Assembly: GCA_947632325.1 (NCBI GenBank)
Contig: CANROU010000009.1
Coordinates: 1 to 43,500 of the forward strand
Length of the DNA stretch: 43,500 nucleotides
Source of the DNA: an uncultured Bacilli bacterium
GTDB lineage: Bacteria > Bacillota_I > Bacilli_A > RF39 > UBA660
Direction: 5' to 3'
The notes under the pieces: generated by a model
Database searches by the model: none
What the model was told of the DNA's origin: nothing
The model's input: only the letters and a program-made list of their open reading frames with translations
Made by a program: the position numbers and the translations under genes
Shown here: piece by piece, positions 39,763 through 43,319 of the stretch
Position numbering within the stretch: position 1 is the first letter of the stretch
How the letters are laid out: each line of letters begins with the position of its first letter

Positions 39763-40518
39763 TTACATTATCACATCATAACAAACATCTGCCAAATATA
39801 ATCCTTCCGCTGGTGCCTTGTGTATCACTGCTAAACAATCAGGATTTTCTAAAATATCCACAATATCACGAGGTTTGCTTTTTCCCTCTCCTATTTTAAT
39901 AAGCATACCAACCATATTTCTTACTTGATATTTTAAAAAACCTGTGCCTATAAAACAAATTTCATATTGATTTTCTTTCATCTTACTTTTCTTGATACTT
40001 GCTTTATATATAGTTCTAACACAGTTGCTTTTTTCTTTATTTTCTGTAACAAAAGCTCTAAAATCATGAGTCCCTTCAAAATAAGTAATAGCCAACCGCA
40101 TCGCTTTAATATTCAATTTATGACAACATTGATATACATAATTTCTATCTGTTGGACAATATTCTCCCAAATTTATTTTATAAATATATTTTTTACTTTT
40201 AACATTATATCTAGCATGGAAATCTAAAGGCACTTCTTTAACATTGTAAACATATATATCATTAGGTAAATAACTATTTAAGGCCCTTTTTAGCTTGTCA
40301 GTAGTAATTTTTATATCCAAATCAAAATGAGCCGTTTGCTTATAGGCATGCACTTTTTTATCAGTCCTACCTGAAGCGTGAACCAAAGTTATTTTATTAT
40401 TATTTATTTTTTTTAGAGTTTTTTGTAACTCTTCTTGAATCGTTCTTAATCCTGGCTGTATTTGATATCCTTTAAAATTACTACCATCATAAGAAAATTC
40501 TATATAATATCTTTTCAT
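39763..40518 (-). CDS. truA: tRNA pseudouridine synthase A
   Basis: Makes pseudouridine at positions 38-40 of tRNA anticodon arms. 251 residues with the catalytic aspartate in ASGRTDKKVHA (near 53) and the FLKYQVRNMVGMLIKIG segment. ATG follows AAAGGAAT. It is 4 nt downstream of the second ABC ATPase, where in Bacillus ecfT normally intervenes. Confidence 0.95.
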   Translation of the reverse strand: MKRYYIEFSYDGSNFKGYQIQPGLRTIQEELQKTLKKINNNKITLVHASGRTDKKVHAYKQTAHFDLDIKITTDKLKRALNSYLPNDIYVYNVKEVPLDFHARYNVKSKKYIYKINLGEYCPTDRNYVYQCCHKLNIKAMRLAITYFEGTHDFRAFVTENKEKSNCVRTIYKASIKKSKMKENQYEICFIGTGFLKYQVRNMVGMLIKIGEGKSKPRDIVDILENPDCLAVIHKAPAEGLYLADVCYDVIM

Positions 40519-40522
40519 TAAA

Positions 40523-41341
40523 TCATTCCTTTATTTTCAAATCAACATGCTTGTATATATCCTTCATTAGATCACGTACATCCTTATGATATCCTAATTT
40601 TATATGTTTTTTTTCTCTAACCAAATAAGTAAAACAAACAATTTCTGGAACATCAATATTATGTTTTATCAAAAACGAAACATCTTCAAATACTTTTTGA
40701 GTCTCTCCTTGACTAACTTTTTCGTCTGTAAGAATTATACAGTAGTCAGTATATTGATATATATAATCACTATCACTAGTTCCAATAATAACCGTTTTAT
40801 GATATTTCTCTATTAATAATTTAAATAACTTTGCTAGACGTTTTTGAACTAATTTATCAAAACCAACTAATACATTATCCAACAGGATAATAGACGGATT
40901 TAACAACATACACCCAGCCAATTGAACTAATTTCTTTTCACTAAAAGATAATCCTGTTATATTACGTTTAAAATATTCTGGCGTTAAACCCACGATCTTC
41001 AAGGCCTCTTTCATCTTTTTATCCCTAGTCTGTAAAGTTTTTCCTGTTCGCTGCCATAAATAACAAAAATATTCTTCGACTGTTTGAATAAAATCAGGAT
41101 ATTGAAAATCATTTCCAACATAACCTGTTTCAGCATATAGTAATGTATCTTTTTTTGATTGTCTTTGTCCTTTGTAATATATACTGCCACTATAATCTAT
41201 TTGCCCATTTAAGGTTTTTAACAATAAACTTTTAGCTGGACCTATAATACCAATAACCTTATGAAGTGGTATAACTATATTCTCTTTATAAATCTTAACA
41301 TCTTCACATTGACATGAAAAATTTTTTAATCCAATGGCCAT
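40523..41341 (-). CDS. Degenerate ECF-type ABC ATPase (EcfA2-like)
   Basis: A 272-residue ABC ATPase relative. Its place and the C-terminal pattern (VFEDVSFLIKHNIDVPEIV) match EcfA2 of energy-coupling-factor vitamin transporters. The ATPase motifs are altered: Walker A reads GIIGPAKSLL (A in place of the glycine before K), the signature is LSFSEKK rather than LSGGQ, Walker B ends LLLDNVL or ILLDN with N where the catalytic E belongs, and the switch histidine is not found (IIGTSDSDY). It probably binds nucleotide weakly and does not hydrolyse it well. It overlaps the upstream ATPase by 16 nt. EcfT is missing from the cluster. Confidence 0.72.
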   Translation of the reverse strand: MAIGLKNFSCQCEDVKIYKENIVIPLHKVIGIIGPAKSLLLKTLNGQIDYSGSIYYKGQRQSKKDTLLYAETGYVGNDFQYPDFIQTVEEYFCYLWQRTGKTLQTRDKKMKEALKIVGLTPEYFKRNITGLSFSEKKLVQLAGCMLLNPSIILLDNVLVGFDKLVQKRLAKLFKLLIEKYHKTVIIGTSDSDYIYQYTDYCIILTDEKVSQGETQKVFEDVSFLIKHNIDVPEIVCFTYLVREKKHIKLGYHKDVRDLMKDIYKHVDLKIKE

Positions 41342-42096
41342 AAATCATCCACCATACTTTCAATATCTAAATCAATTTCATCTATAAGATTATAAAATTG
41401 CAATTTCAAAGATAAATCTACCATAAAAGGTATCTTAAGCCCAAGGCGATTTAATATATGTTCTTCCTTATAAACCGCCACAGGATCACCTTCTAGCACT
41501 ATTTTACCCTTATTTAAAATATATAAATAATCAGCAATTGTAGTATCACAAAGAGAACTAGTAGTCATAACTATAGTACACTTTAATTTTTGGTGAACCT
41601 TTAAAAGTAACTGCAAAAAAGCCCTACTCTCATCATGTGTTAAAAAAAGACAGGGATCATCCAACAATAATAATTTAGGTTTTAACAATAATTCCTTAGC
41701 TAACCAAACTCTTAATTTATCCCAAGCATTTAATTCATTTACTTTGTTTTCCAATATATCTGTTATTAAACAAAAAGACGCCGCTTTATGACATTTAGCG
41801 ATGGTTACCTTTTCATCTTCATCATTTTGTAATACATTTAAAACTGTTTGATTCCCGTAATCATCCGCTAAAGATAATGATATTCCTATATTTTCTTGTT
41901 TTATAAAAGGATCGCCAAAAGTATATTCAATAGTGTCAATTGTAGGAATAATTTGCCCTATAGCTTTAATAAGTGTAGTCTTACCACATTTATTATTACC
42001 AGATATCATTGTAATATTACCTTCTTGAAGCTCTAAAGAAAAATTGTGGAAAATATTTTGATAATTAAAATTGGTAATCTTTAGTAATTTTTTCAC
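41326..42096 (-). CDS. Degenerate ECF-type ABC ATPase (EcfA1-like)
   Basis: A 256-residue ABC ATPase relative with an intact Walker A (GNNKCGKTT, about 33-41) and a C-terminal LGLKIPFMVDLSLKL like EcfA1. Other motifs are off: the signature position reads LNAWDKLR, Walker B is LLLLDDP (D for E), and the switch region is MTTSS without histidine. It starts with GTG at 42096 behind GGGGGT. Gene order rplQ, SDR, EcfA1-like, EcfA2-like, truA matches Bacillus rplQ-ecfA1-ecfA2-ecfT-truA except for the added SDR and the missing EcfT. Transport function is doubtful. Confidence 0.75.
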   Translation of the reverse strand: MKKLLKITNFNYQNIFHNFSLELQEGNITMISGNNKCGKTTLIKAIGQIIPTIDTIEYTFGDPFIKQENIGISLSLADDYGNQTVLNVLQNDEDEKVTIAKCHKAASFCLITDILENKVNELNAWDKLRVWLAKELLLKPKLLLLDDPCLFLTHDESRAFLQLLLKVHQKLKCTIVMTTSSLCDTTIADYLYILNKGKIVLEGDPVAVYKEEHILNRLGLKIPFMVDLSLKLQFYNLIDEIDLDIESMVDDLWPLD

Positions 42097-42119: not shown

Positions 42120-42884
42120 TTAACTTTTTGGATTTGCTTTTTTACTTCTTTGAATTTTATATGCCATTTTAAGCAAAGCGCGATCAGATAAAAATCGCGA
42201 AAAGAATTTTACACATTTCATCTTAAAACCAGGGATAATTAACATTTTTCCTTTAAACATCTCATCGATAGCTATTTTAGCTACCCTTTCAGCACTAAAT
42301 CCTTTTAACTTAAATTCCACATTAGCCACATTATTAAAATTAGTATCAACAGGGCCTGGACAAAGGCACGAAATACAAACCTGGCTCTTAATTCTACGTA
42401 ACTCTTCATTAATAGCTTCCGTTAAATGTAAAACATAGGCTTTTGTCGCATAATAAGTTGCCATTAACGGCCCTGGTTGGAAAGCCGCAGTAGAGGCAAC
42501 ATTTAAAATATAGCCATGATTTTTTTTCTTCATATCTCTTAAAAACATCTTAGTAAGAATATGAACAGCCCTAATATTTACATCTAACATATTTAATTCA
42601 TTACTTAAATCCGTACTTGTAAAATACCCACAATCACCAAAGCCAGCATTATTAATCAAAATATCTATATCATAATTTCGACATAATACATACAACTCTT
42701 TTACTTTTTGTTCGCTACTTAAATCTAAGACAATAATTTGGCTTTTACTTTTAAGTTCGCTTTGTAATTGTTCTAATTTTTCTTTATCACGAGCTACTAA
42801 AATCAAGTTGCATCCCAGTTCACTTAAGTACTTAGCCATTTCACGACCAATACCACTAGATGCTCCGGTAATCAACGCCTTCAT
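42120..42884 (-). CDS. Short-chain dehydrogenase/reductase, classical
   Basis: A 254-residue NAD(P)-dependent oxidoreductase with the TGASSGIG loop (about 6-13), NNAG (near 82), the catalytic YYATKAYV (Y and K) and PGPVDTNF after it. The pattern resembles DltE/YqjQ-type SDRs with a hydrophobic C-terminus; the substrate is unknown. ATG follows AGGTGG. It is first in the SDR-ABC-ABC-truA transcript and is unrelated in detail to the SDR at 28731. Confidence 0.9.
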   Translation of the reverse strand: MKALITGASSGIGREMAKYLSELGCNLILVARDKEKLEQLQSELKSKSQIIVLDLSSEQKVKELYVLCRNYDIDILINNAGFGDCGYFTSTDLSNELNMLDVNIRAVHILTKMFLRDMKKKNHGYILNVASTAAFQPGPLMATYYATKAYVLHLTEAINEELRRIKSQVCISCLCPGPVDTNFNNVANVEFKLKGFSAERVAKIAIDEMFKGKMLIIPGFKMKCVKFFSRFLSDRALLKMAYKIQRSKKANPKS

Positions 42885-42962: not shown

Positions 42963-42988
42963 GCAAAAAACTAGTTATTTAACTAGTT
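42963..42988 (-). terminator. rplQ terminator
   Basis: Minus strand AACTAGTT, loop AAAT, AACTAGTT then TTTTGC. The last codons and TAA of rplQ lie in the hairpin. Confidence 0.85.
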
Positions 42989-43319
42989 CTAATATTACCA
43001 TAAGTGAATCATCTCCACGACGTTCATCCAATTTTAAAATTCTTGTATATCCGCCATTACGGTCTTGATAACGATCTTTTAATTCGTTAAATACTTTATC
43101 TACTACCTTTTTATCATTATGAACAAAAGCAAGAGCTTTCCTACGAGCCACTAGACTTCCATCTTTACCATAGGTAATCATTTTATCAACAAACTTACGA
43201 ACTTCTTTAGCTCTAGTTTCTGTAGTTGTAATTTTTTCATTTAATATAACTTGTTTTGTTAAAGTAGCAAGCATACTTCTTCTATGTTTGTTAGTTCGTC
43301 CTAGTTTTCTATATGCCAT
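42975..43319 (-). CDS. rplQ: 50S ribosomal protein L17
   Basis: Binds 23S rRNA near the exit tunnel. 114 residues with [17 protein letters not shown] and the C-terminal [25 protein letters not shown], both diagnostic. ATG follows AAGGAGG. It is 19 nt after rpoA, as is usual. Confidence 0.99.

Follow-up and report, generated by a model that had tools for sequence, protein, structure and literature searches.

The predicted EcfA1-EcfA2 heterodimer encoded in the window, by which we mean the whole 43,500-nt stretch of DNA analysed here, appears to have outlived its transporter. We consider it probable, at roughly 60%, that the pair, clamped on ATP and essentially unable to hydrolyse it, has been retained for a role that is independent of transport. 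As shown below, the pair has remained under constraint after repeated loss of EcfT, which supports the original prediction insofar as it proposed a non-transport role.

An EcfA1-EcfA2 pair directly upstream of truA

On the minus strand of the window, the genes are ordered rplQ, SDR-family oxidoreductase, EcfA1-like, EcfA2-like and truA, and EcfT is absent (Table 1). The coordinates bear out the original prediction of two adjacent, overlapping ABC ATPases upstream of truA with no EcfT. It also placed the pair between rplQ and truA; both genes do flank the pair, but the SDR gene separates rplQ from EcfA1. The EcfA1 and EcfA2 reading frames overlap by 16 nt, and truA starts 4 nt past the EcfA2 stop. 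Across the family, 108 of 117 loci share an overlap of exactly 10 nt, a constancy that looks as it does for co-translated partners.

Table 1. Genes and motifs at the EcfT-less locus of the window.
Feature	Positions	Strand	Remark
rplQ	42975-43319	-	Locus context
SDR-family oxidoreductase	42120..42884	-	Context; upstream of the EcfA pair, conserved there in relatives
EcfA1-like ABC ATPase, 256 aa, GTG start	41326..42096	-	Predicted hydrolysis-deficient, probably ATP-binding
EcfA1 Walker A GNNKCGKTT, residues 33-41	41974..42000	-	Intact (sequence)
EcfA1 signature position LNAWD	41719..41733	-	Degenerate (sequence)
EcfA1 Walker B LLLLDD (LLLLDDP)	41656..41673	-	Asp for catalytic Glu (sequence)
EcfA1 C-terminal dimerisation-type motif GLKIPFMVDLSLKLQFYNLIDEIDLDIESMVDDLW	41338..41442	-	Top information content among EcfT-less copies
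EcfA2-like ABC ATPase, 272 aa	40523..41341	-	Signature retained, Walker A lost
EcfA2 degenerate Walker A GPA---KS	41228..41242	-	3-residue deletion (alignment)
EcfA2 signature LSFSE	40937..40951	-	Conserved as LSxSE
EcfA2 Walker B IILLDN	40874..40891	-	Glu to Asn (sequence)
EcfA2 C-terminal motif YHKDVRDLMKDIYKHV	40544..40591	-	Among the best-conserved stretches of EcfT-less copies
4-nt gap at the usual place of EcfT	40519..40522	-	truA next; gene of ~250 aa here in EcfT-bearing relatives
truA, tRNA pseudouridine(38-40) synthase	39763..40518	-	TIGR00071, 198 bits, above cut-off

The best NCBIfam match of the EcfA1-like protein is TIGR04520 (ECF_ATPase_1), at 86.5 bits, which misses the curated equivalog cut-off of 315. 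Its best PDB profile match is EcfA1 (8bmr/5d3m), and its AlphaFold2 model (pLDDT 89.9) has CbiO/EcfA as nearest folds. Judged by best match and by gene position, as the first of the pair in ecfA1-ecfA2-(ecfT)-truA, it is a member of the EcfA1 subfamily. The EcfA2-like protein best matches TIGR04521 (ECF_ATPase_2; 110 bits, missing the curated equivalog cut-off of 330) and, both by PDB profile and by fold, EcfA2 4mki; the pLDDT of its AlphaFold2 model is 90.2. By best match it is a member of the EcfA2 subfamily, and for both proteins this membership is one of descent. When we searched the genome with the EcfA2 sequence, the one match at E <= 1e-22 was the gene itself.

All motifs quoted in the original prediction were present in the two ATPases when the sequence was read directly. 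In the EcfA1-like protein, Walker A and the Asp of Walker B are all that is left of the catalytic set; LSGGQ, the Walker B Glu and the switch His are gone, and TTSS occupies the position of the last. The EcfA2-like protein has no switch His, no full Walker A and no catalytic Glu. Catalytic E and H at shifted positions were considered and rejected, as other residues occupy these positions in profile alignments to the solved EcfA1 and EcfA2 chains, with no E or H found elsewhere. The catalytic motifs of both ATPases are thus broken, as originally claimed.

Search for EcfT and S components in the genome

The window belongs to contig 9 in an assembly of 1.05 Mb with an estimated completeness of 93.65%; incompleteness of such metagenome-assembled genomes (MAGs) could mask single genes in the counts given here. 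The assembly contains no match to PF02361 (EcfT/CbiQ), nor to a family-specific profile made from 19 EcfTs of the family, in which the most diverged copies were included. The three S component families searched, PF12822, PF07155 and PF07456, gave no match above cut-off. A putative decayed PF07456 remnant (C2:7483-7743, 18.6 bits, 4 stops) lies antisense within an intact P-type ATPase gene and was dismissed as a chance match. Neither of the two tested features of a complete ECF transporter, EcfT and an S component of the families searched, is present in this genome. The suggestion that another ECF set serves uptake is ruled out for this assembly, to the extent that EcfT can be recognised.

EcfT was lost repeatedly while the pair was kept

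For 131 genera of the same GTDB family, whose named relatives are uncultured Bacilli MAGs, e.g., Ca. Scybalousia and Ca. Faecimonas, we examined the genes that precede truA. An EcfT-like ORF lies between EcfA2 and truA in 63 genera, including three with ORFs that give no EcfT match. In 59 genera, the EcfA1-EcfA2 pair precedes truA without EcfT, and its location and pattern of motifs are those of the window. Only nine genera have lost both EcfT and the ATPase pair. As the EcfT-less pair recurs in 59 genera, the arrangement is more than chance. The loci of other Bacilli families are ordered EcfA1-EcfA2-EcfT-truA, which means that the EcfT-less state is derived and that the changes were mainly losses. 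On a tree of truA, the presence or absence of EcfT changes 20 times by parsimony (mean of 44 for shuffled labels), with at least 10 changes forced by supported branches; the exact number is uncertain, since the tree comes from a quick search with a single protein and has many weak branches. This tree gives no support to a single origin of the EcfT-less state.

Where EcfT is present at the locus, its match strength ranges from >300 bits down to 18 bits across the family. A graded erosion of EcfT is visible at ten loci (L006, L009, L013, L019, L052, L197, L203, L150, L206 and L207), running from full length to ORFs of 187-228 aa with little or no EcfT signal; the EcfT ORFs of L006 and L009 are without the conserved ASRG coupling motif. 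At L150, L206 and L207, an ORF of 187-209 aa in the place of EcfT has no EcfT match. In one EcfT-less genome (G159), an EcfT-like frame with one stop (C13:23075-23632, 63 bits) is found away from the EcfT-less truA locus (L189), and could be either a relic or an additional copy.

The steep divergence of EcfT at one and the same locus, together with the three unmatched ORFs, shows how a membrane partner could escape detection, and the pair might thus still power transport via an unrecognised, non-homologous or extremely diverged partner encoded elsewhere. We regard this as unlikely. Even with the diverged copies built into the profile, no EcfT turns up elsewhere in the EcfT-less genomes, apart from the broken frame in G159. 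Neither site has a catalytic Glu and EcfA2 has no Walker A, which makes sustained ATP-driven cycling improbable, and the client family PF07456 is gone too (see below). Moreover, Glu-to-Gln mutants of a solved ECF module show neither transport nor hydrolysis above background (PMC10368641).

One predicted composite ATP site is kept and the other is destroyed

To compare the motifs, we counted each genus once (59 EcfT-less and 58 EcfT-bearing genera). Walker A of EcfA1 is intact in 49 EcfT-less and 52 EcfT-bearing genera, and the Ser and Glu of the EcfA2 signature are present in 45 and 51, respectively; neither count differs between the groups. In contrast, the catalytic Glu of EcfA1 is found in 3/59 versus 33/58 genera and the full Walker A of EcfA2 in 9/59 versus 42/58 (Fisher p=3e-10 in each case, in a test that ignores phylogeny). 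When only supported branches are used, seven independent pairs are left, too few for significance, and all informative pairs for the EcfA1 Glu point in the expected direction. In a larger, partly redundant set of 118 EcfT-less pairs, the catalytic Glu of EcfA1 is replaced by Asp in 71 and by Asn in 36, the Walker B Asp is kept in 112, and the EcfA2 signature has changed from LSxGE to LSxSE. The LSGG of EcfA1 is gone in nearly all EcfT-less pairs.

In ABC heterodimers, each Walker A lies opposite the signature of the partner chain. Read in this way, the motifs indicate that the site made of EcfA1 Walker A/B and the EcfA2 LSxSE signature is kept for binding, whereas the opposite site, made of EcfA2 Walker A and the EcfA1 signature, is destroyed. 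EcfA1 Walker A and the EcfA2 signature are both kept in 40 of the 59 EcfT-less genera. According to the original prediction, the lack of the catalytic Glu in both proteins does not fit a simple asymmetric pair; once the composite sites are weighed, the damage turns out to be strongly asymmetric. Two EcfT-bearing loci have lost a single Walker A: L025 (G024) in EcfA2 only, and L026 (G034) in EcfA1 only, the reverse of the usual asymmetry.

Loci with a strongly diverged EcfT already carry motif damage in their ATPases. This suggests that the loss of catalysis tracks the divergence of EcfT and probably came before its loss.

The highest information content in EcfT-less copies is found in the C-terminal segments, namely LPFMVDLSxKLxxY and LW in EcfA1 and the DLxKDIYK region in EcfA2. 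The C-terminal motif of EcfA1 survives in forms without a P-loop, and the shortest forms, found in a few genera, retain little besides the C-terminal domains. In EcfT-bearing members of the family, the C-terminal motif of EcfA2 reads GYRDEINDLIKDIYRYV, a type that we did not see in three loci from other Bacilli families. Walker A of EcfA1 is not intact in 10 of the 59 EcfT-less genera, so ATP binding cannot be an essential feature shared everywhere, and some of these genera may do without bound nucleotide.

The EcfT-less pair is under purifying selection

We calculated dN/dS by the Nei-Gojobori method for thirty pairs of close EcfT-less species, in which dS is often near 1 and which share species and are thus not independent. 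Values were mostly 0.05-0.21 for EcfA1 and 0.04-0.15 for EcfA2 (0.34 and 0.26, respectively, in one pair), compared with 0.04-0.18 for truA and 0.02-0.11 for the SDR gene in the same species pairs. Between the genome of the window and a congener (G002), EcfA1 and EcfA2 are 37-44% identical, whereas truA is 65% identical. The ATPases evolve faster than truA and SDR, which indicates that constraint has been partly relaxed. These values clearly argue that the EcfT-less pair is under purifying selection as protein, though more relaxed than its neighbours. Simple decay of the pair was rejected on dN/dS, and the original suggestion of a decaying module is not supported, given that the frames are intact in 59 genera, that most dN/dS values lie at 0.04-0.2 and that EcfT was lost repeatedly from loci that retained the pair.

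A slower process, in which a leftover pair is pseudogenising and vanishes by deletion in reduced genomes, would be in line with the faster evolution than neighbouring genes, the lost catalytic motifs, the N-terminal truncations and the nine genera without the pair. It is nevertheless improbable. In recently diverged EcfT-less species, dN/dS is far below 1, and frames are open with codon position 2 the least variable, even in the forms of 150-185 aa without a P-loop; among random 150-codon frames of like composition, none stayed open in 20,000 trials. Furthermore, the loss of residues is patterned rather than random, and the pair survives in dozens of genera.

In most EcfT-less loci, truA begins within a few nt of the EcfA2 stop, and the frames might be kept merely for transcriptional or translational coupling to this downstream gene. 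We give this very little credence, because it is the amino-acid sequence that is under purifying selection, and because in three loci (L059, L216 and L218) the pair is gone and the SDR gene directly abuts truA. Retention of the pair for a role of its own remains our preferred reading.

FAD export as a probable earlier client of the ECF module

In 48 genomes of the family, PF07456 (EetB-type FAD-export component) is present in 11 of 20 EcfT-bearing and in none of 28 EcfT-less genomes (p=7e-6). Among the S families searched, it appears to be the only recognisable ECF client of the family. In three EcfT-bearing relatives (L237 in G003, L238 in G005 and L239 in G017), PF07456 (EetB-like) lies in an operon with ApbE, NusG_II and an FMN-binding lipoprotein, an arrangement suggestive of extracytosolic flavinylation in gut Bacilli whose genomes measure 1.2-1.7 Mb. 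PF07456 beside ApbE, NusG_II and FMN_bind resembles the Listeria EetB-FmnA-EcfA/EcfA' FAD exporter (PMC9973259), and the ECF module of the EcfT-bearing family members therefore probably served such FAD export. Unlike the Listeria system, the EcfT-less genomes, including that of the window, have no PF07456 match above cut-off. Two loci (L014 in G046 and L017 in G025) carry a well-conserved EcfA1-EcfA2-EcfT module in genomes with no above-cut-off match to PF12822, PF07155 or PF07456.

The simplest history would start with the loss of the client. FAD export for flavinylation would have been the last recognisable client of the ECF module; once it was lost, EcfT would have diverged and then been deleted, while the ATPase pair stayed. 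Reduced, auxotrophic gut Bacilli have been described as RF39 (PMC6784871), and the family studied here, which we take to be RF39, resembles this group. A search of open-access papers yielded nothing on EcfA pairs that lack EcfT or on ECF in RF39.

A possible role beyond transport

How could the pair act without EcfT? EcfA1 and EcfA2 would still pair as a heterodimer, which would close on one ATP, with hydrolysis very slow or absent. By way of its C-terminal domains, the pair could then act as an ATP-stabilised scaffold or an adenylate-responsive switch. A few lineages would have dropped the P-loop as well, leaving the C-terminal dimer module. ABC-F, UvrA and SMC are soluble ABC ATPase dimers that function without a membrane subunit and provide a precedent for membrane-free dimers. 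However, they hydrolyse ATP and belong to other subfamilies, whereas the EcfT-less pair is of ECF origin.

The closest known system, with the best sequence and fold matches, is the Group II ECF module EcfA1-EcfA2-EcfT of Bacilli (e.g., Lactobacillus ECF-FolT2; PDB 5d3m, 8bmr and 8bms), which has the same ATPase subfamilies, gene order and synteny with truA. The EcfT-less pair differs from it in that EcfT and a recognisable S component are missing, both catalytic Glu and the switch His are gone, and Walker A of EcfA2 is deleted. When Glu is changed to Gln in both sites of a Lactobacillus ECF module, hydrolysis stops and the dimer is found closed, with ATP bound and the signature motifs engaged (PMC10368641). 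The degenerate sites of heterodimeric ABC exporters (TAP1/2, TM287/288 and CFTR) likewise combine a Walker B Glu-to-Asp change with a change of the H-loop in a slow ATP-binding site, and at natural Glu-to-Asp sites of exporters ATP is bound and slowly hydrolysed (PMC7756269). In these exporters the second site is catalytic, whereas the EcfT-less pair lacks both this site and a transmembrane domain. By analogy with the ECF mutants and the exporter sites, we infer that the EcfT-less pair may be an ATP-clamped scaffold or switch.

As the same outcome recurs, the role is probably older than the loss of EcfT and would have existed beside transport. More tentatively, and with the odds somewhat against it, we propose a transport-independent EcfA1-EcfA2 function in Bacilli that predates the loss of EcfT in this family. 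The repeated losses would have uncovered this function, with the pair stripped to an ATP-clamped, in places nucleotide-free, heterodimer whose function resides in the C-terminal domains.

ECF ATPases are usually viewed as shared motors that are useless without EcfT. Dozens of genera nevertheless keep the pair after many separate losses of EcfT, with one ATP-binding site apparently spared and hydrolysis apparently abandoned. The EcfT-less pairs are natural separation-of-function variants, and such genes should not be annotated as vitamin transporters. Their retention argues that a very common protein pair has a role not described so far, and bacteria whose ECF transporters are complete may possess this role as well.
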